A DNA stretch of 56,874 bases. It comes from a virus. Every line of letters begins with the position of its first letter. The stretch's first letter is position 1. Of the stretch, positions 12,226-56,874 are shown one piece after another. The notes under the pieces were generated by a model. That model did no database searches. It had not been told where the DNA came from and saw only the letters and a program-made list of their open reading frames with translations. The stretch spans positions 1-56,874 of IMG/VR virus record IMGVR_UViG_3300045970_000182. One strand, 5' to 3'. A program made the position numbers and the translations under genes.

Positions 12226-13806
12226 TTATATCATTATAGGCATAGGAGAATCCATAGCTGATTCTTCCGAATCAGAAACATCTATGTTGATTGCTGCCTG
12301 AGACTTATCATCCCATGTTGAAATGTAATCTAGCATACGAACTACCAATATAAGCGCCATGATTAAATCGTCTGTTTGGCCAATACGCGCCTCGTATGTG
12401 TTTCCTCTCGATACAAAAACTTTGAACTCTGACAACAATCCCTTTGAGTTTATTTTCATTTTCGTGGATTCTATCAAGAATTTCAACTTGGCACAACATT
12501 CTAGCTTAGATTTATTTGTTGTGATAAATCCTGCTCGGCGACCTGTCTTACCTTGCAATCTATTCTTAGGATCGTGTAACATCTGCCCTGCGAAGTTTTC
12601 TTCGCCTGTATCCCGTATAACAACTAATGCTGCTTCACCGAGTGTATTACTTTCTACTGACCAATATATTTCTGATTCGCCTTTACTTTCTTCTTTTATT
12701 TCTTGTAATACCTTCTTCAGAGTTCTAACTTGTTCTTCAATAGGAGATCTATTGCTACTCCATTCTGCTACCTGTATAAGCGTAGGTAACTCAAACACCT
12801 GTATAGCAGCATTGTCGCCACCGGTGCCCATTGATGGATCTAATCCCGCAACATATATCATGTTTGGTCTAATAGGAGCAAACCATCTAACCTGACCTGT
12901 CTTCTTAATAGGCTGAATGGATTCCATTTGCCCAAGTTTAATAGGATTAATAAGTGTTTCTTCGAATGTAATAAACTCGCCGCAGTGTTCTCGCAAGAAT
13001 CTATCTTCACCGATTGCAGCTTCTTCCTTATCTGCCCATGCTTGATCTCTATCAGGGTGTTGATGCCATACAGCCTTATAGGATTTAAATCCGTTTCTAC
13101 CTATCTCTGTTTCATTTCCGTTGTTGTCAACTGTTTTCAACGAACCAAACCATATTTCAGCAAACTGATCTTCGTCTGTGTTAGGGGTAGATGTAATAAT
13201 GCACTTACCGCCTGTGGACAGTGTAGGAGATAGCGATGTCCAAAACTCTTTTGCTATACCGGGTTCTACGAATGCAAACTCGTCTAAATACACAAGTGAT
13301 AACGACATACCCCGACCAGTGTTTTCTGTTGTGGTTGTTGCTACAATACGGGAGCCGTTTGCAAAGTCGATAGACCTTTTATTATATGTTTTTACGCCGT
13401 CTCGTATATGGTCAGGTATAGATTCGTATGCATATCTAACCCGTTGCATGATTTCTTGAGCACCGTCATACTTATTTGATGTAATAAGAATGGTAGAATC
13501 ATCATTAAACATTGCATACCATAACAAATACCCTGACGCCACTGTGGTCTTTCCAAGTTGGCGACCTAATAGGTTAACTGATTTTCTATATTTGGTGTAT
13601 GTTTCGAGCAACTCAATCTGAAAATCATATAATGAGATCTTTATCTTACCCCTGGTAGGGTGTTGCACATACATAAAATTCTGTATAAAATATAGAGGAC
13701 CGGTCTCTGGGTCACAGCACTTAGCCAGTTCCTCCATTTGTGCTGGAGTATAGTTTACTTTAGAAAATGCACGTTTTACAAGAGTGGAATCTTGATAAAT
13801 GGCCAT
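12226..13806 (-). CDS. 17: Terminase large subunit (gp17-like)
   Basis: TerL is the ATP-driven DNA packaging motor and headful nuclease. The 526-residue protein has Walker A GRQLGKTT (81-88), Walker B LVYLDEFAF (171-179), a coupling-type ITSTPNT (about 204-210), and an RNase H-like nuclease domain with the first metal Asp in AGLDPSMGTG (D323) and a late acidic pair in QTDDLIMA. The size is close to T4 gp17 (610 aa) without the extra C-terminal segment. It lies downstream of TerS and small genes in packaging order. Confidence 0.95.
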   Translation of the reverse strand: MAIYQDSTLVKRAFSKVNYTPAQMEELAKCCDPETGPLYFIQNFMYVQHPTRGKIKISLYDFQIELLETYTKYRKSVNLLGRQLGKTTVASGYLLWYAMFNDDSTILITSNKYDGAQEIMQRVRYAYESIPDHIRDGVKTYNKRSIDFANGSRIVATTTTENTGRGMSLSLVYLDEFAFVEPGIAKEFWTSLSPTLSTGGKCIITSTPNTDEDQFAEIWFGSLKTVDNNGNETEIGRNGFKSYKAVWHQHPDRDQAWADKEEAAIGEDRFLREHCGEFITFEETLINPIKLGQMESIQPIKKTGQVRWFAPIRPNMIYVAGLDPSMGTGGDNAAIQVFELPTLIQVAEWSSNRSPIEEQVRTLKKVLQEIKEESKGESEIYWSVESNTLGEAALVVIRDTGEENFAGQMLHDPKNRLQGKTGRRAGFITTNKSKLECCAKLKFLIESTKMKINSKGLLSEFKVFVSRGNTYEARIGQTDDLIMALILVVRMLDYISTWDDKSQAAINIDVSDSEESAMDSPMPIMI

Positions 13807-21216: not shown

Positions 21217-23796
21217 TTACGCTGATAAAGATGCGCCTGTGTTCTTAATACGCACAGGAATGTAAATAAACTCAACTGCTTTAACAGGCTGAATTGCAAT
21301 ATCAATCCACAACTCGTTCCTATCTATACGAGTAGGTGTATTATTGCTTGTGTCGCATACAACCAAATAGTCATATAAACCACGCAAAGTAATCAACTCT
21401 GATAAGAATCTATCAAATGCATCCTTAGCAGCCTTTCTTGTAACAGAATCATTTGGCTCAAATAAGAATGGTTGAGCTAACAAGTTAAGTTGATAGCGCA
21501 AATAGTTTTCTAAACGAACTACATTGATACGATCTGTTGCACTGGAGTAAAGCTGGCGTGTTTTTTGTCCAAATATTACAACTCCACCCGATGGCATAGT
21601 TCTAATAGGGTTGATATTATTTTGATATAATATATCTCGCTGTCCTTCACTTAGCTTAACAGTTATGTATTGTCCTGTGCTGTTTACATAACCAACTGAT
21701 GTAGCATTATTTACAACACCGCGTTGTAATCCTGCTGGTGCAAACCACGGATACGCCACTTGGTCGTTGTATGCAATAGTACGCAATGCCATGTGTGATG
21801 GTGGAACAACAACGTCTGTGCCATCTACATTGGTTGCCAATCCACTTGGATACCAAGATGCGAAGTATTTACTTGCTGAAGTTAATCCATCTGCTCCGTT
21901 ACCGTATGCACTATTACTATTTGATGCCCATGCCTGCAATGTTGTGCCTGTTGGAGATAAAGTAAATGGAGAGTCACCAACAACGAATGCAGTCATTTGT
22001 CTATCTTCGTTTAATAACAACATTTCATCTATCGCTTCAACATATCCAGGTGCTGCAATCAGGTTAAAATATAAATCTTCTGAACGAACTTCTTCGTTAG
22101 AAGTAATCATTTCTTGGATTGCTCTTACAACACAAATATTTTGTGCTGCTGCGCCCATATAAGGCACACCGCCTACATTGTTACCGGAGTATGTAACCCA
22201 ACGACCTAAAGATTCGCTGTTTGTGTTGTCTGCTGCTGCTGCAACACCACCATAAGAAAATGTAGAATTCCATTGTTTTACATTATTTGTAGAATAACGA
22301 GTATTCCATAATAGGAAACCACGTGGATATAAATCAGCATCGGGACGATCTGGATCTAAGTCCGGTGTTGATGCAACTTCGCCGTTATTAACACCTGTGT
22401 TGGTGCCAAATAATGGGCTCGGACGTGCATCTGCAAAAATAATACCATTTGGTGATGTTTGATCTGTATTATCAACCAATGACCATGCTGTACCAGACCA
22501 ACGTTTAATAACAGGATATGGTGCTAAATCTGTATCAACCCATATATCACCTGCTACCATAGTTGGTGCTGTAGGATTGTCTCTTGGATCACCAGATTGT
22601 GCAAATAAGGTGTATGCATCGCCGGCAATAAGAACATGGCCCACTGCTGGTGGCGCTATTTGTCCAGGTAACACAACATTGTCCCAAGTACCGTTACCCG
22701 TACATACCAATACGTCTACTGTAGAAAATCCTGCACCGTTAATACCTACTTCGGCATTAAACCATAATGTACCTGCTGTAGGACCTGCCATTGGCATAGT
22801 CGAAGATCCGATTATTGTGGTTACAGTGCTGTACGCTTCTGCATATGCTGTTCCTACCTTAATAACAAGCGTATTTCCGGAGGAATAATCAGCAAATAGC
22901 TTACCTGTAGCACCTGTTGTACTTGTTGCATAATATGCATCAGCTGCAACCGAGTCAGCTAACACAGGCACAAGTTGTTGAGCAAACTGCGAAGTTGTTG
23001 CGCTCATTTTAAGCAATACAATATCTACGCCTTGTGCTGCTGCACCAGTCTTAACCCAATATTGTTTAGTGTTGCTTATTAAATCTGGCCATACAGGTGT
23101 AATAATGATACTATCTAAGTTGGTTGCACCGCCTGTACCGCCTGGTGTAACACCTACTGTCGTCATCTTCACCCATGCACCAAGATGTGCAATCCAATAT
23201 GCTAATGTACCTGTTGCAGTTTCAAACGATACCGCAATTTCGCCGTCAACATTAATGATGCCGTTGGATGGTGTATTTCCTGTTCCTGTGGAAAAGTTAA
23301 CCACATAGTTCGGTGTTACCTTAACCCAGGATCCCGATGCTCGACTAAATAATCCAAAATCTGTACCTGTAGTCTGCGATTCATCTAACCAGTATGTTCC
23401 TGCAGGCGATGCACTTGCTGGTTGCACAGATGTAGCAGCAAGTTGGGCCGTGTCAATGTTTGCACGAGCAACTCTTGCTAGGTTTGAGCTGCCTAAATAA
23501 GAATAAGCTGCTAATAATCCATATTCATTTAATGGATAACCATTAACTGACGAACCGCCAATGCTGTAAAACATAGGGTCGCCAAATGTTTGCACTAAAT
23601 CTCTTTGTGATGTGATTGAATAAACTTTTCCTGCATTGGCTGCAAGAGTACCTGCGGCAACTGCTGTTCCGGTAGGATCGCTTTTATTTTCTTGTGTGGC
23701 TATAAAAATCATAGGCACTGTTCCTGGGCCGGCGCCGACATTAACCGACTGGTCTGTAACTGTGATATTTGAGCCTGGGGATACTGAAACTGCCAT
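21217..23796 (-). CDS. 18: Tail sheath protein (gp18-like), extended
   Basis: The sheath contracts to drive the tube through the envelope. At 859 residues it is larger than T4 gp18 (659 aa). The N-terminus (NITVTDQSVNVGAGPGTV) and the C-terminal core (TRIDRNELWIDIAIQPVKAVEF, then IYIPVRI) are typical. A protruding middle region (about 110-460) has several copies of a GDIWVDT / GTLWFNA-type motif with Trp and Gly spacing, probably surface-exposed insertion domains. Late-type box at 23837-23844 and AGGAG before the start. Confidence 0.92.
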   Translation of the reverse strand: MAVSVSPGSNITVTDQSVNVGAGPGTVPMIFIATQENKSDPTGTAVAAGTLAANAGKVYSITSQRDLVQTFGDPMFYSIGGSSVNGYPLNEYGLLAAYSYLGSSNLARVARANIDTAQLAATSVQPASASPAGTYWLDESQTTGTDFGLFSRASGSWVKVTPNYVVNFSTGTGNTPSNGIINVDGEIAVSFETATGTLAYWIAHLGAWVKMTTVGVTPGGTGGATNLDSIIITPVWPDLISNTKQYWVKTGAAAQGVDIVLLKMSATTSQFAQQLVPVLADSVAADAYYATSTTGATGKLFADYSSGNTLVIKVGTAYAEAYSTVTTIIGSSTMPMAGPTAGTLWFNAEVGINGAGFSTVDVLVCTGNGTWDNVVLPGQIAPPAVGHVLIAGDAYTLFAQSGDPRDNPTAPTMVAGDIWVDTDLAPYPVIKRWSGTAWSLVDNTDQTSPNGIIFADARPSPLFGTNTGVNNGEVASTPDLDPDRPDADLYPRGFLLWNTRYSTNNVKQWNSTFSYGGVAAAADNTNSESLGRWVTYSGNNVGGVPYMGAAAQNICVVRAIQEMITSNEEVRSEDLYFNLIAAPGYVEAIDEMLLLNEDRQMTAFVVGDSPFTLSPTGTTLQAWASNSNSAYGNGADGLTSASKYFASWYPSGLATNVDGTDVVVPPSHMALRTIAYNDQVAYPWFAPAGLQRGVVNNATSVGYVNSTGQYITVKLSEGQRDILYQNNINPIRTMPSGGVVIFGQKTRQLYSSATDRINVVRLENYLRYQLNLLAQPFLFEPNDSVTRKAAKDAFDRFLSELITLRGLYDYLVVCDTSNNTPTRIDRNELWIDIAIQPVKAVEFIYIPVRIKNTGASLSA

Positions 23797-39678: not shown

Positions 39679-41115
39679 TTAAAAGTCGTAGCGTTCGACC
39701 ATTACAGTCTTCAACATAATGCTGATCGGTGTCATTTCTTCTCCACCTAACACTGACTTAACAATGCTTGGCGAGAATCCAGACACTAATGCAGCACCTA
39801 CCTTGTTGTAGGTAACCGGGCTGTTTCCAGCACGACCATTCAGATTCCAAAATACCACTTGTGGCACCTTGTAACCAGCTGCGGCATATTCTTGTTCGAT
39901 GAAGTCCATTGCGCTTACGCTAACAGATGAACCACCACTCGACATATATCCACGAACCTTACCTGATCCGCCTGTTGTTACACAAGCGTCGAATTCCATA
40001 TCTGACAAGATCAAGATCTTTGTAGGCATTTCTGCTTCCGAAACCTTGTGCTTTACTGCTGCATTCAAGATTAACTTAAATACCGCACCCAGATCTGTAT
40101 TCATAGACCAGTTGGAACGGGCCATTTGGTCGTAACGTTGTTCCAGCGTACCCTTCAAGTGCAGCATTTCTGGTGCACCAGAGAATGTAACGAACATATC
40201 CTTAAATACGCCGCCCATTCTTTCCGATGTATACAATCCCAAAGAGATCGCAACATCCATGGCAGTTACGCTTCCAGACACTGCTACACCACTCATCGAA
40301 CCCGATACGTCAACAACCGATAGGATGTTTTCGTCCGAACCTTCCAAATAGTTTGGCAATGCTGCCCATTGTGCGTTCGCAACAACCTTATCGCCGTTCT
40401 TCAACGAGCGGATAACGTCATATGGATACGCAACAGATGCGTTGATCTTTGCTTCGCCCGATACCAACTTTTCCTTGTAGACACCATACCCCTTCGGGTC
40501 GTGCTTCAAGAATGCCTTTTGGTAACGGCCAGCTGCTACAGACGGAACATGTGGGTAAACAATGTTTTCCCAATCACGAGCACACATCTTTTGTTCTACA
40601 GTTGTAGACATTCCAACCAATAACTTACGATATTGCTTAGGTGTCATACGCATATAGGCACGGATTTTGTTAGCTTCTGCACCTTGACGGGGCATCCACT
40701 TAGCGCATAAACCATCTTGCACGTCATTCAACGCGAAAGAGATCATACGCAACGCATCACGCTCCAAAGGAGTGCCAAATGTCACAAACAAGTCGTCCCA
40801 ACGACCAAGTTCCGGTACCTTCATCAACAGACGAGCTGCCAACTTTGGTTCAGTCTTAATCAAATGTGTAAACAACTTACGGAACGTATCGCGTTCACCT
40901 GCACCACCACGTGCATCACGTGCCCATTCAAGGACACGAACTGCTACTTCGGGGTCTTCTACCAACGCACCGACAAAGGTAGGTGTAATATCCTTACCAC
41001 GGCTTGCGCCGGCTAAGAAAAATAGGTCCACGTTCTTATTTAACGAGGATGCGTTTGTAACTGCGCCATTGGCTGTTACGGCTGTTGCGTTTACTGCTGC
41101 GAATAATGTGCTCAT
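39679..41115 (-). CDS. Ro60-like protein (TROVE/DUF2828-type alpha-solenoid plus vWA domain)
   Basis: Ro60 proteins are ring-shaped RNA-binding proteins that hold Y RNAs and misfolded RNA. The 478-residue product has helical-repeat signatures of the TROVE/DUF2828 group: VLEWARDARGGAGERDTFRK (62-81), VPELGRWDDLF (100-110), WMPRQG, KMCARDWENIVYPHVPS, and GEAKINASVAYPYDVI. A von Willebrand A domain follows with MIDAS motif DVSGS (269-273), then TDLG and a later Asp (LSDMEFDA). AAGGAG precedes the ATG. A Y-RNA-like element (41171-41279) lies 55 nt upstream on the same strand, which strengthens the assignment. Confidence 0.85.
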   Translation of the reverse strand: MSTLFAAVNATAVTANGAVTNASSLNKNVDLFFLAGASRGKDITPTFVGALVEDPEVAVRVLEWARDARGGAGERDTFRKLFTHLIKTEPKLAARLLMKVPELGRWDDLFVTFGTPLERDALRMISFALNDVQDGLCAKWMPRQGAEANKIRAYMRMTPKQYRKLLVGMSTTVEQKMCARDWENIVYPHVPSVAAGRYQKAFLKHDPKGYGVYKEKLVSGEAKINASVAYPYDVIRSLKNGDKVVANAQWAALPNYLEGSDENILSVVDVSGSMSGVAVSGSVTAMDVAISLGLYTSERMGGVFKDMFVTFSGAPEMLHLKGTLEQRYDQMARSNWSMNTDLGAVFKLILNAAVKHKVSEAEMPTKILILSDMEFDACVTTGGSGKVRGYMSSGGSSVSVSAMDFIEQEYAAAGYKVPQVVFWNLNGRAGNSPVTYNKVGAALVSGFSPSIVKSVLGGEEMTPISIMLKTVMVERYDF

Positions 41116-44505: not shown

Positions 44506-45525
44506 TTATTGCCTTAATAAATATTTGTTAGATACCACCTTAAAACTTGCGTGGCACTCATTACAATTAAATACAAGGCCTTCTCTTTCACACCCGATCA
44601 TTCCCATAACAGATTTACCTTCAGCAAATAATAATAAATCATTAATAGTCTTATCGGATAAATCATATACCGAATTAAGTATAGGGACAGATGTCAACCC
44701 CAAGTGTTCTATTAATAATTTCTTCTCTGCAGGATATAAATATTCTTGTTTATCTATATCATAAATATCAAATACAACCAACATATGATCTTTTAATTGG
44801 TATATATTTCCCTGAATCCCTGGTCCTAAGATTTCTGATTGGATTGCTAAATTCCTGTTTAACGCTAATAATTTATTTTTCAAATCATACTTAATAGCAG
44901 TTTTCCACATTGTATTGTTTTCGTCTTCCTTTAAGTCGAGATTACGGCTGCAAACACCAAACTCACTGTCCATTAGATAAGCTGTAAGCGATGAGCCTTC
45001 ACATTTTTCAGACACCGACCAGGTGAATTTCTTTTCTTTCCAAAATTCAAGTTCTTTTGGTAGATTTTGAATTCTCTCTTGGTCAGTTTTAGGAATTCTC
45101 GACGGAAAGTTTCCGCGCACAAGTCCTGCAAGCTGAGCAGAGATAGGTGCTTCATATTTTTGAATGTTAAGCGGGAAAGATACATCCAATCCTTCAAACA
45201 GCATAGATTCTATGTTAGCGCAAGTTGGTTCGAGCGGTAGTAATAGACCTTGACTAAGCTGCTTTTTTAGCCGAATTGTGCGTAGTTTTTCGCCCTTAAC
45301 CCCGTTATACTCCCGCGGCTCTTTGCCTTTACACAAAAACGGCGCTAATTCGACGGGAATCCAGGAATCAGGTTCAGCATATACTACCAAATCACCGACC
45401 ACATATCTTCCTACCTGGTCAACAACCCACCAACCGTCCACCCGATACGCACAGATTAAATCTGCTTCGGGTATTGCTTGTATTTCTGCTATCTTTCTGA
45501 TAGTAGCCATTTTTCTTTCTGTCAT
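44506..45525 (-). CDS. RNA ligase (Rnl5/DraRnl-like)
   Basis: I choose ATG 45525 (MTERKMATIRKIAEIQ) because it overlaps the upstream stop as ATGA and follows AAAGGGGG; the frame is open to 45615. The N-terminal domain (about 100 aa, KIAEIQAIPEADLI, GDLVVYAEPDSWIP) is OB-like, as in the Deinococcus RNA ligase family. The nucleotidyltransferase follows with motif I SEKCEGSS (K is the adenylated Lys), then QSEILGPGIQGN (motif IIIa), GLVFNC (IV), and FKVVSNKYLL (V). Such ligases repair nicked RNA, often tRNA cleaved by host defence nucleases. Confidence 0.85.
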   Translation of the reverse strand: MTERKMATIRKIAEIQAIPEADLICAYRVDGWWVVDQVGRYVVGDLVVYAEPDSWIPVELAPFLCKGKEPREYNGVKGEKLRTIRLKKQLSQGLLLPLEPTCANIESMLFEGLDVSFPLNIQKYEAPISAQLAGLVRGNFPSRIPKTDQERIQNLPKELEFWKEKKFTWSVSEKCEGSSLTAYLMDSEFGVCSRNLDLKEDENNTMWKTAIKYDLKNKLLALNRNLAIQSEILGPGIQGNIYQLKDHMLVVFDIYDIDKQEYLYPAEKKLLIEHLGLTSVPILNSVYDLSDKTINDLLLFAEGKSVMGMIGCEREGLVFNCNECHASFKVVSNKYLLRQ

Positions 45526-45731
45526 TTTACCCCCTTTAATTTCTTTACTATATGCTCTGCTTCCCACTCTTCGAGTCCGTCGTTTAACCAACGCCGATAA
45601 TCCTCCAACGCCCACACAAATCTATCTGGCGTATATTCCGGTTTGTGTTCAACCAATACATCTAGCGCAGTGAGTGCTTTGCGATGTTGCTTCATTGATC
45701 CTGCAATATATTCTTTGCGGCGTGCAGCCAT
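45522..45731 (-). CDS. Small hypothetical protein, 69 aa
   Basis: Basic, helical product (MAARRKEYIAGSMKQHRK; RWLNDGLEEWEAEHIVKKLK). Overlaps the RNA ligase start by 4 nt. Unknown function. Confidence 0.5.
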   Translation of the reverse strand: MAARRKEYIAGSMKQHRKALTALDVLVEHKPEYTPDRFVWALEDYRRWLNDGLEEWEAEHIVKKLKGVK

Positions 45732-52097: not shown

Positions 52098-52172
52098 TGG
52101 TGCCCTGTGTCGGAATCGAACCGACGAATAAAAGTTTTAGAGGCTTCGGATCTACCATTGATCTAACAGGGC
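52098..52172 (-). tRNA. Amber-reading tRNA (anticodon CUA)
   Basis: 75 nt with encoded CCA. Acceptor GCCCTGT/ACAGGGC, D arm GATC-AATGGTA-GATC, anticodon stem GAAG/CTTT around CCTCTAAAA, so positions 34-36 are CUA and read UAG. Pair 31-39 is C.A as in the Ser tRNA here. T arm GTCGG-TTCGATT-CCGAC. It is a plausible nonsense-suppressor tRNA. Amino acid identity cannot be told from sequence. Confidence 0.78.
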
Positions 52173-53817: not shown

Positions 53818-54279
53818 TTAAAAACTATATTTTGCACCAACAGAGACCATATTTCCGTTTAGATACTTAACACGCTCTTGACCCATTTGGTAAGCATAAT
53901 CTGCTACCAAACTAACTTTCTTTGTTAGTGGATAAGATACACCTGCACCAACCAATGCTGCATAACCGTCATCACCGACGCTCGAATCAAGATATGCTGC
54001 GCCAGCTTTACCTGCGAAGGTAAATCCTGCCAACTTCATAACTTCATAAGAACCAACCACGCTGTAACGGTTTAAGTTTGCTACACCATTCGTTGTACGG
54101 TCAAACGCAACTTCTGCACCAACTTTTCCATATTGTTGGCCAAGAGTAACACCGGCGGTATTAAGACCGACGTTTGTTGTATCAACTCCACCAATGCGAC
54201 CACCGCGAATGCCGATGTCCATTGCCGAGGCTGCTGCTACAGATGCTGCCAAAACTGCCATAATTACTAATTTTTTCAT
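53818..54279 (-). CDS. Outer-membrane beta-barrel (OmpX/Opa-like) protein
   Basis: MKKLVIMAVLAASVAAASA is a Sec signal cut after ASA. The mature ~134 residues alternate hydrophobic and polar residues in about eight strands (VGAEVAFDRT, RYSVVGSYEVM, FTFAGKAGAAYL, VSLVADYAYQM) and end VSVGAKYSF, with the C-terminal Phe needed for Bam insertion. An 8-stranded barrel of this size matches OmpX/Opa-like host proteins. In a phage it could mask or replace a receptor to block superinfection. Convergent to the endonuclease. Confidence 0.75.
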   Translation of the reverse strand: MKKLVIMAVLAASVAAASAMDIGIRGGRIGGVDTTNVGLNTAGVTLGQQYGKVGAEVAFDRTTNGVANLNRYSVVGSYEVMKLAGFTFAGKAGAAYLDSSVGDDGYAALVGAGVSYPLTKKVSLVADYAYQMGQERVKYLNGNMVSVGAKYSF

Positions 54280-54579: not shown

Positions 54580-54609
54580 AAAAAGAAAGGGGCCGAAGCC
54601 CCCTCTTTG
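54580..54609 (-). terminator. Intrinsic terminator at the end of the tmRNA gene
   Basis: On the minus strand AGAGGGGGC-TTCG-GCCCCTTTCT followed by TTTTACATT. GC-rich, with UUCG tetraloop. It lies about 45 nt after the tag stop codon. Confidence 0.88.
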
Positions 54610-54945
54610 ATTGGTTTGGTTACAAGGTCTTTCTACCTCGCGCTTTGTGTTTCTTAGGCAGCAATAGCGTAGTGAGTATCGTTTGCAGATATTCTGTTTT
54701 GCTTGATTTACAGTCATCGCCTACTGAGTTGCCTTTTTCAATATCTCACGCCATCGATTACCGGAGCAGCCCCATCAGAAACACTCTTTGGTCTATCCGA
54801 ACTTGTCCGTGAATCACGGAGAGTATTCTGGTGTACCAGCCCTGAGAGTTGATGTTATCGTATCTTCAAGAGTGTTTATGGTGGAGCTGGCGGGATTCGA
54901 ACCCGCGTCTGGCTTGCCTTTTCTCCAACGGAATTACAACTATCA
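54607..54945 (-). ncRNA. ssrA: Permuted two-piece tmRNA (ssrA)
   Basis: tmRNA rescues stalled ribosomes and tags the nascent protein for proteolysis. On the minus strand the order is swapped: first the acceptor piece with T arm (GCGGG-TTCGAAT-CCCGC) and CAGCTCCACCA ending at 54879, then a ~105 nt intervening segment, then the coding piece starting GGGGCTG at 54773. GGGGCUG pairs with CAGCUCC and keeps the G3-U70 pair recognised by alanyl-tRNA synthetase. AAACACTCTT and AAGAGTGTTT in the spacer extend the acceptor stem for processing. The tag frame GCA..TAA follows. CAACU/AGUUG can join the two pieces. Confidence 0.92.
54654..54686 (-). CDS. tmRNA proteolysis tag, ANDTHYAIAA
   Basis: Eleven codons from GCA (54684-54686) to TAA (54654-54656) encode ANDTHYAIAA. 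It keeps the E. coli-type A-N-D start and the A-A end needed by ClpXP; the middle differs from host tags such as ANDENYALAA. The resume codon GCA and surrounding CTGCAAACG are standard. No start codon is expected, as translation resumes from alanyl-tmRNA. Confidence 0.9.
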   Translation of the reverse strand, partial: ANDTHYAIAA

Positions 54946-54951
54946 ATCTAT

Positions 54952-54980
54952 ATTATATTATGTCACTAATATAAAATCAA
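54952..54980 (-). promoter_or_regulatory. Sigma-70 promoter for the tmRNA gene
   Basis: Minus strand TTGATT (54975-54980), 17-bp spacer, TATAAT (54952-54957). The predicted start, near 54945, is right at the first base able to pair with the coding piece. Confidence 0.8.
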
Positions 54981-55063
54981 CTATCCACGAATGCCGAGTA
55001 GAGCAGGAGGTGCATACACTCATGTATTTATTTTAATATTGAAATAAGTTAACTATAGCTTAA

Positions 55064-55481: not shown

Positions 55482-55751
55482 CTATTTACATGCGTTTAGT
55501 TTGGCGAGTAACTCTGTTTGATAACCTTGTCCCAGCTTTCTGTCAGACAATAAGCACCTAACCTGAACATAAATGTCTGTTCCGTCCTGTATTTTTACAA
55601 AGCAGAAATCGGGTGGTGGTGGTGCCTCTTCTTTACACGGAACTGCTACAGGAACTTCAACCTTCTGTGTTACTATCTTTATAACAGGTTCTGGTGTTGC
55701 ACATCCTATTAATAAAACAATAGGTAATAGAAATATTTTATTTACGAGCAT
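55482..55751 (-). CDS. Outer-membrane spanin subunit (Rz1-like lipoprotein)
   Basis: MLVNKIFLLPIVLLIGCATP carries a lipobox (L-I-G-C, lipidated Cys17). The mature part is Pro-rich (VEVPVAVPCKEEAPPPPDF) with further Cys, typical of o-spanins, and it partners the Rz-like protein encoded just upstream (14-nt overlap). Spanins fuse the inner and outer membranes in the last lysis step. Confidence 0.82.
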   Translation of the reverse strand: MLVNKIFLLPIVLLIGCATPEPVIKIVTQKVEVPVAVPCKEEAPPPPDFCFVKIQDGTDIYVQVRCLLSDRKLGQGYQTELLAKLNACK

Positions 55752-56145
55752 TTGCTAACTCCTCATTTATAAGTGCTTCTGCTGCATCACACTTCGACAT
55801 ATCTTGTGGTGGCGGACGATTTAGTAAATCCTCTGCCTGTCTCTTATATGATTGTGCTACAGCTTGCGCTTTCTTAACTTCAACAGCATTTTTTGCTAAT
55901 CTTGCATCAGATTCTGTTTTTAACTTTTCTATAGCGGCATTTTGTGCTACTATATCATTCTTTAACTGTAATAAACTTGCTTGAGATGCATCTAAAGATA
56001 TCTGCAAAACCTGCTTTTCTGCAACTAATGTATCTTTTTGAGATCTTAATACAGTAATATATACTGTTTGCCCTGCTATAACAAGGCCTAATAGTGCTAT
56101 AACTATATAAGTCTTGTTATTTAAGAAAAATGTTAATATTCCCAT
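55738..56145 (-). CDS. Inner-membrane spanin subunit (Rz-like)
   Basis: The 135-residue product has an N-terminal anchor YIVIALLGLVIAGQTVYITV (about 13-32) and a long periplasmic coiled-coil (about 36-110; SQKDTLVAEKQVLQISLD, QLKNDIVAQNAAIEKLK). This is the i-spanin design. The 3' end overlaps the Rz1-like gene, as in most phages. Confidence 0.85.
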   Translation of the reverse strand: MGILTFFLNNKTYIVIALLGLVIAGQTVYITVLRSQKDTLVAEKQVLQISLDASQASLLQLKNDIVAQNAAIEKLKTESDARLAKNAVEVKKAQAVAQSYKRQAEDLLNRPPPQDMSKCDAAEALINEELANARK

Positions 56146-56196: not shown

Positions 56197-56223
56197 AAAA
56201 AGCCCTATTAATAGGGCTTTTAT
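56197..56223 (-). terminator. Intrinsic terminator after the cytochrome gene
   Basis: AAAAGCCCTA-TTAA-TAGGGCTTTTT, a symmetric stem immediately after the cytochrome stop codon. It separates the cytochrome gene from the lysis cassette. Confidence 0.9.
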
Positions 56224-56224
56224 A

Positions 56225-56874
56225 TTATGCGAAATATGCTTTGATCTTTGTGAAGACCTTTGCCATGTATTTCATTGCCTCGTCATAAGCCTGAGCGCAC
56301 TTAAATGCTGCGTCAATGCTGTGGCAAGTTTCGCACTGGTCGGATGTAACTGGGTGACCTGGTGTGTAGAATGTCTTGCCTTTGGCGTATGTTCCGTTGT
56401 GACAAGTTACACAACCAGTTGTCACACCTAAGTGAATCTGCGTGTGGCTAACTGTCCAGTTGGCAGTTGTGTGGCAGTTCTTACAATCCACTGTTGTCGC
56501 AATGTGAGTAGTTGATTTCGCCTTGGCATTGTAAATCGTATATGATCCGTTGTGGCAGCTATCGCAGTTGTTTGCTGCAACCGATGGGTGGTTCATAGTG
56601 AAGTTAGTTGTAAAGAGTGTTGTGGTGTGGCACTGAGCGCAATCAATCAGCCCTGTTGGGATGTGCGATAGCGAACGACCTACCGTCAAACGCACTGGAT
56701 CGCCGTTGTGGCATCCAATACAAGTTTTGGGTGTTCCAACGAATACTGCGCTTTTGTGACAGCTGGCACAGGTTCCGCATTTTCCGGTGGATAAGTGAGC
56801 ACCGTCCAATACAAACGATGGGTGTGATTGTTCGTACAGCGTACATTCAGCAGCGGACGCACTTAACGGTGCCA
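56225..56874 (-). CDS. Multihaem c-type cytochrome (partial at window edge)
   Basis: The frame is open to the right edge and ends TAA at 56225. The visible part carries seven C-x-x-C-H haem-binding motifs (CASCH, CIGCH, CAQCH, CDSCH, CKNCH, CVTCH, CETCH) at spacings of about 15-30 residues and further His that could be distal ligands, several as CHNG. The extreme N-terminal visible residues APLSASAAECTL look like the end of a signal peptide cut after ASA, so a periplasmic location is likely. The last 35 residues are a non-haem helix (AFKCAQAYDEAMKYMAKV). An internal TTG at 56809 is not the true start. Such proteins serve extracellular or periplasmic electron transfer and are exceptional in phages. 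Confidence 0.85.
   Translation of the reverse strand, partial: APLSASAAECTLYEQSHPSFVLDGAHLSTGKCGTCASCHKSAVFVGTPKTCIGCHNGDPVRLTVGRSLSHIPTGLIDCAQCHTTTLFTTNFTMNHPSVAANNCDSCHNGSYTIYNAKAKSTTHIATTVDCKNCHTTANWTVSHTQIHLGVTTGCVTCHNGTYAKGKTFYTPGHPVTSDQCETCHSIDAAFKCAQAYDEAMKYMAKVFTKIKAYFA

Follow-up and report, generated by a model that had tools for sequence, protein, structure and literature searches.

The window analysed here, an IMG/VR contig taken in full (56,874 bases), ends in a gene whose product carries a series of haem-binding motifs. Two questions follow: does a multihaem c-type cytochrome belong to a phage genome at all, and, if so, what would a phage do with it? The initial annotation read seven CxxCH motifs in ~195 residues, in a frame running past the window, and both points were borne out. 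The frame stays open up to the contig end, with motifs starting at residues 35, 51, 78, 103, 130, 154, and 180, and no more than three CxxCH motifs arose in 100,000 composition-preserving shuffles of the 215 residues. The translation scored 41.1 bits against Pfam Cytochrome_C7 (PF14522; curated cut-off, 24.8 bits) and, below the curated cut-off of 22.9 bits, 19.9 bits against Class III cytochrome c (PF02085). The window protein is a c7-type cytochrome, listed as MHC-B in Table 1.

An exact-match search past the cytochrome end found no viral contig that extends the window. In alignment with complete homologues, the window start (APLSASA followed by AECTLYEQ) pairs with their signal-peptide c-region, MLKKILLSLALIVAGTLGTATTASA, followed by the same AECTLYEQ. 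Only the beginning of the signal peptide is therefore lost past the contig end, and the mature cytochrome is complete, with 208 residues and seven haems expected; this alignment also gives the total haem count that the initial annotation had left to a longer contig. All seven CxxCH motifs are invariant in 15 of 15 aligned copies, which share exactly seven further invariant histidines (H17, H26, H70, H95, H123, H147, and H173), as seven bis-His haems need. Computable pairs gave dN/dS ratios of 0.04 to 0.14. An AlphaFold model of the cytochrome was unusable (pLDDT, 38.8).

Table 1. Coordinates of the cytochrome, its motifs, and phage marker features in the 56,874-base window
Feature	Coordinates	Strand	Basis or remark
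Multihaem c-type cytochrome MHC-B, 7 CxxCH, 215 codons	56225..56872	-	Translation, Pfam, 15-row alignment; 5' end cut inside signal peptide
Signal peptide, C-terminal part (APLSASA), cleavage before AEC	56852..56872	-	Alignment with complete homologues having a Sec signal peptide; cleavage site inferred
CxxCH haem site 1 (CASCH)	56756..56770	-	Motif and alignment
CxxCH haem site 2 (CIGCH)	56708..56722	-	Motif and alignment
CxxCH haem site 3 (CAQCH)	56627..56641	-	Motif and alignment
CxxCH haem site 4 (CDSCH)	56552..56566	-	Motif and alignment
CxxCH haem site 5 (CKNCH)	56471..56485	-	Motif and alignment
CxxCH haem site 6 (CVTCH)	56399..56413	-	Motif and alignment
CxxCH haem site 7 (CETCH)	56321..56335	-	Motif and alignment
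Terminator-like hairpin AAAAGCCCTATTAATAGGGCTTTT	56198..56221	-	Between cytochrome and spanins; perfect hairpin, -14 kcal/mol, z -3.7
Inner-membrane spanin-like gene	55738..56145	-	PHROG Rz-like match with weak E-value; 42% identity to 369 kb sister phage counterpart
Outer-membrane lipoprotein spanin-like gene	55482..55751	-	Overlaps inner spanin gene; phrog_3580 8e-18; 40% identity to sister phage
tmRNA gene	54584..54989	-	Rfam beta_tmRNA, 132.6 bits
Large terminase subunit	12226..13806	-	Pfam Terminase_6N 5e-17
Tail sheath protein	21217..23796	-	Pfam Phage_sheath_1C 1.5e-14

The cytochrome family was found in 21 IMG/VR contigs (51 to 66% identity), and five of these—contigs of 179, 266, 327, 328, and 369 kb—also carry a terminase and a tail sheath, which upholds the claim that a phage genome encodes this multihaem cytochrome c. 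The window has terminase and sheath on the same contig, along with a tail tube, structural proteins, and tRNAs. Its terminase is 60% identical to those of jumbo phages of the PA5oct group (~287 kb) and 48 to 49% identical to those of phages of 469 to 490 kb; the closest phage by this protein is the 369 kb contig (77% identity). Since these nearest terminases belong to jumbo phages, the window most probably represents part of a jumbo-phage genome, as judged from its genes; all of the phage records are fragments. The initial annotation had named a chimeric join between 56150 and 56225, or a host contig, as the reading that would undo its own. A chimeric assembly or misclassified host contig could be suspected from the position of the cytochrome at the contig end and its higher GC content (48% versus 38.5%), but the 369 kb sister carries a seven-haem cytochrome, inner and outer spanins, and a tmRNA in the order and orientation of the window. 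Because this order is repeated in an independent contig, a chimeric join in the window is very unlikely. Together with the terminase and sheath genes on homologue contigs, the shared order led us to reject host contamination and chimerism, and the formation of a separate clade by the phage porins described below also speaks against host DNA, an origin that we regard as extremely improbable.

Relatives with sequence upstream of the gene indicate that the cytochrome does not stand alone. In all 14 distinguishable phage lineages with upstream sequence, an outer-membrane protein of ~535 to 735 aa heads the cassette, either as the immediate upstream neighbour of the cytochrome or separated from it by one further cytochrome gene, and this constant neighbour rules out a lone cytochrome. 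The additional cytochrome, MHC-A, has four to six CxxCH motifs, often with a terminal CX4CH site, and is missing in three lineages, including the 369 kb sister. The corresponding position in the window is cut off, and from all of the relatives we infer that its porin lies just upstream, past the contig end. The porin carries TPR repeats, with an N-terminal PilQ-type (AMIN-like) segment added in longer forms. An AlphaFold2 model built with 15 aligned rows (pLDDT, 82.5) has periplasmic helices and a 22-strand barrel that aligns to the 22-strand barrels of TonB-dependent receptors with Z up to 20; unlike in those receptors, the model has a TPR domain where the plug would be. Among the structural matches listed for the porin, none was an MtrB-type barrel. 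Porin dN/dS ratios were 0.13 to 0.21 for computable pairs, and by these ratios the cytochrome and porin genes are under purifying selection in phages. A tree of both cytochromes was poorly resolved. A porin pattern scan of viral contigs got no further than the six nearest, so the number of phages counted with the cassette should be read as a minimum. Dense tRNA arrays, of 19 to 29 genes within ~20 kb, surround or adjoin the cassette in four loci (L066, L013, L009, and L010). In the 266 kb phage, a few genes separate the cassette from a peroxiredoxin-like gene on its downstream side (L072:12779-13429).

On the window contig, the cytochrome lies beside a spanin pair. The initial annotation had recognised these spanins, and the overlapping pair is backed by PHROG matches, the Rz-like one weak, and by the homologous pair of the sister phage. 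It had also given the cytochrome its own terminator: the perfect hairpin between the cytochrome and the spanins agrees with this, although a consensus terminator scan made no call there. This arrangement invites a role in lysis, in which the cassette would be expressed with the lysis genes and its barrel or cytochromes would help to disrupt or poise the outer membrane. Such a role would suit the spanins next to the cytochrome here and near it in the 369 kb sister, the GH19 enzyme adjoining the cassette in L071 and L079, and another tetrahaem cytochrome adjoining spanins on a 166 kb contig. On that 166 kb contig, however, the cassette itself sits next to tRNA genes, ~38 kb away from the spanins; in the window the terminator-like hairpin separates cytochrome from spanins, and seven-haem conservation calls for a redox reason. 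We therefore consider a lysis-linked role very improbable. The tetrahaem cytochrome of the 166 kb contig (L025:11669-12310; 51669-52310, + strand) differs from the cassette cytochromes and directly follows a spanin pair homologous to that of the window; cytochrome genes may tend to accumulate at the lysis locus of these phages.

Several further genes of the window were recorded in passing. ARAGORN assigned the tRNA gene at 52098-52172 (- strand), whose anticodon is CTA, to tRNA-Pyl; it may encode an amber suppressor tRNA. The window also has, at 53818-54279 (- strand), a gene for a small OmpA-like outer-membrane barrel; close to its own cassette, the 266 kb phage carries a relative with 34% identity. 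A DUF7788/DUF2828 protein (39679-41115, - strand) is conserved in relatives (49%), and an RNA ligase gene at 44506-45615 was noted with it.

Five phage lineages also encode a membrane protein of 145 to 158 aa with two WX3HX13H motifs and an SGXXG motif. Its gene adjoins the cassette in three lineages and lies >60 kb away in the other two. This motif set is a trait of the inner-membrane protein of PCC3 and PCC4, where it was read as that of a quinone-reactive cytochrome with two b haems (PMC5566968). The protein was not found in the 57 kb of the window or in the 369, 179, 123, and 106 kb relatives, all of which are fragments. Two phages (L188:8262-9297 and L189:1003-2050) have, as partner of the unlinked cytochrome b gene, a gene whose secreted product of ~195 aa may be a small outer-membrane barrel; the OmpA-like barrel gene of the window shows no similarity to this partner. 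Retention of a quinone-type cytochrome b bears on a further alternative, that the cytochromes are periplasmic electron capacitors or haem stores that buffer redox state or sequester haem and iron against oxidative or reductive stress, with no outer-membrane conduit. The peroxiredoxin-like gene of the 266 kb phage is in keeping with this idea, but neither the cytochrome b nor the constant pairing with a dedicated PCC3-family barrel is what it predicts, and we judge it quite improbable. The initial annotation had also offered a surface cytochrome for adsorption or redox stress, a suggestion that found no support.

The nearest cellular counterparts of the phage porins identify the family to which the cassette is related. 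It is that of the outer-membrane wires, built of a porin and multihaem cytochromes and in some cases joined by an inner-membrane partner, through which bacteria trade electrons with minerals and humic matter. The phage porin profile matched 22 of 399 genomes of the order, 23 of 187 of the family, and 42 of 369 of the class of the nearest cellular match, and it retrieved porins of large-cytochrome clusters with E-values (calculated per genome) down to 1e-109. Nearly all of the cellular homologues inspected adjoin one cytochrome with 24 to 27 CxxCH motifs, another with 10 to 74, and an inner-membrane protein of ~300 aa. Clusters of a porin, cytochromes with 24 to 27 and 10 to 74 haems, and a cytochrome b of the inner membrane follow the layout published for PCC3 (PMC5566968); we called the cellular clusters PCC3 from this layout and the inner-membrane motifs rather than by matching them to named PCC3 sequences. 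In a maximum-likelihood tree of 46 porins, built with no outgroup, a fully supported branch separated 14 phage rows plus one from a Methylophilaceae MAG from 31 cellular rows. By sequence, then, the phage porins are strongly diverged from cellular PCC3 porins.

Such divergence might be expected if the porin and cytochromes served to remodel the cell surface, replacing or masking a host PCC or another outer-membrane receptor and so excluding superinfection, with electron transfer incidental or absent. The cassette does put new proteins into the outer membrane, and a glycosyltransferase and a GH19 enzyme adjoin it in one huge-phage group. Masking, however, needs neither invariant haem sites nor seven extra histidines, and it leaves the cytochrome b kept in five lineages unexplained. 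We consider surface remodelling unlikely.

We favour instead, with reasonable though not high confidence, a reading in which the window gene supplies one part, a secreted seven-haem cytochrome, of a PCC3-type porin-cytochrome conduit that is compact and adapted to phages. This reading draws on the porin upstream in all lineages with sequence there, its PCC3 homology and modelled 22-strand barrel; on the invariant haem sites and histidines, the dN/dS ratios of 0.04 to 0.21, and the phage origin of the operon; and on the retention of cytochrome b in five lineages, in two of which it is unlinked from the cassette by >60 kb. Against it stand the inner-membrane protein not found in the window and four relatives, and the truncation that removes the window porin. 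Its main gap is the periplasmic wire: in contigs scanned whole there is no 21- to 27-haem cytochrome, and the cytochromes present are short (4 to 7 haems).

In such a conduit, host Sec would export the cytochrome and host Ccm would presumably load its haems. The phage barrel would provide the path through the outer membrane, with one or both cytochromes occupying or capping it; in several lineages the second cytochrome, with four to six haems, would join the complex. Where a short phage cytochrome b is encoded, it could feed or drain the quinone pool, and elsewhere host donors would have to do so. Electrons would then leave the quinone pool or periplasm for an acceptor outside the cell, for example Fe(III) or humics, or enter from an outside donor such as Fe(II). 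Respiration on Fe(III) or humics, or electron uptake from Fe(II), could thus continue while the host proteome decays, and the infected cell might stay energised during jumbo-phage infection once host respiratory proteins stop being renewed. Of the roles proposed in the initial annotation, the one it favoured, keeping respiratory electron flow running, fits best. That annotation recognised the multihaem phage cytochrome and overlooked the putative PCC3-related conduit of porin and cytochrome, with cytochrome b in some lineages.

The infected cells are probably Gram-negative and beta- or gammaproteobacterial. Methylotrophs and Fe(II) oxidisers of humic and iron-rich waters carry PCC3 and other putative conduits (PMC6344600, PMC5566968), which fits the nearest cellular relative. 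A search for pmoC/amoC as a host hint gave no match, and neither did the control. For a more far-reaching proposal, we see the chances as evenly balanced: that the barrel, compact cytochromes, and minimal quinone cytochrome b form a jumbo-phage conduit lineage of their own, smaller than and distinct from PCC3, which controls the respiration of infected cells on extracellular acceptors or donors and is occasionally passed back to bacteria.

Known auxiliary genes of phages serve photosynthesis and carbon, sulfur, and nucleotide metabolism. No homologue of the cytochrome or porin was found among the 50,697 phage records of INPHARED, and no PHROGs family matched the cassette. Our literature search found no phage-encoded porin-cytochrome module; preprints and most subscription journals lay outside it, so that priority is not certain. 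If the proposal is true, an envelope conduit would extend phage auxiliary genes to respiration outside the cell and tie viruses to iron and humic redox cycling. The cassette may also be among the smallest natural porin-cytochrome wires and, as such, a useful model of how these conduits work.

Several known systems offer points of comparison. Aquatic phages carry tetrapyrrole genes (viral alaS, hemO, and pcyA), and the authors who described them mention cytochrome-rich extracellular electron transfer in peat bogs (PMC11480375); those genes resemble the cassette in being haem-linked auxiliary genes but are biosynthesis genes. No link to phage 5-aminolevulinate synthase was found in 17 records. 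With MtrCAB, MtoAB, and PioAB, the cassette would share the working principle of an outer-membrane barrel combined with multihaem cytochromes, but there is no family-level match and the phage barrel is predicted to have 22 strands. Membership in the MtrC/OmcA family was rejected (OmcA/MtrC decahaem model TIGR03507, 16 bits versus a cut-off of 209.3).

Closer is a compact set of seven-haem cytochrome, porin, and five-haem cytochrome in the Methylophilaceae MAG JABFRO01 (L054:8593-15213), on a bacterial contig of 2.0 Mb where genes for IS200-like and DDE transposases and for an ammonium transporter lie close by. Its seven-haem cytochrome is 54% identical to the window protein; its gene order differs from that of the phage cassettes. 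Because the JABFRO01 porin nests inside the phage porin clade (support, 94/88, in a tree without outgroup), a phage or a shared mobile pool is the probable source of the locus, phage-to-bacterium transfer being the simplest reading of the sequences.

The closest known system is the PCC3 clusters of Proteobacteria, Fe(II) oxidisers among them (He et al. 2017, PMC5566968; Gallionellaceae pangenome, PMC10734462), for which electron transfer across the outer membrane was deduced from genomes in the PCC3 papers. Like these clusters, the phage cassettes have a homologous porin, related repeated c7-type cytochromes, and adjacent porin and cytochrome genes, and some phage lineages have a homologous inner-membrane cytochrome b with the same motifs. 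The differences lie mainly in size. Cassette cytochromes have 4 to 7 haems versus 10 to 74 in PCC3, so no extracellular cytochrome with at least 10 haems was found. Nor was a periplasmic cytochrome of ~21 to 27 haems: frames with >7 CxxCH motifs were absent from six relatives scanned whole, with genes counted by simple frame calling, and from the loci of the remaining relatives, all of them fragments. By inspection, the phage cytochromes resemble the two termini of a large PCC3 cytochrome from which most repeats have been removed. The phage inner-membrane protein has ~150 aa and lacks the soluble insert of its ~300-aa cellular counterpart, and the phage-encoded porins form a separate clade. 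Since both large cytochromes were looked for and not found, we do not file the cassette as PCC3; it is a compact, phage-borne, PCC3-like variant.
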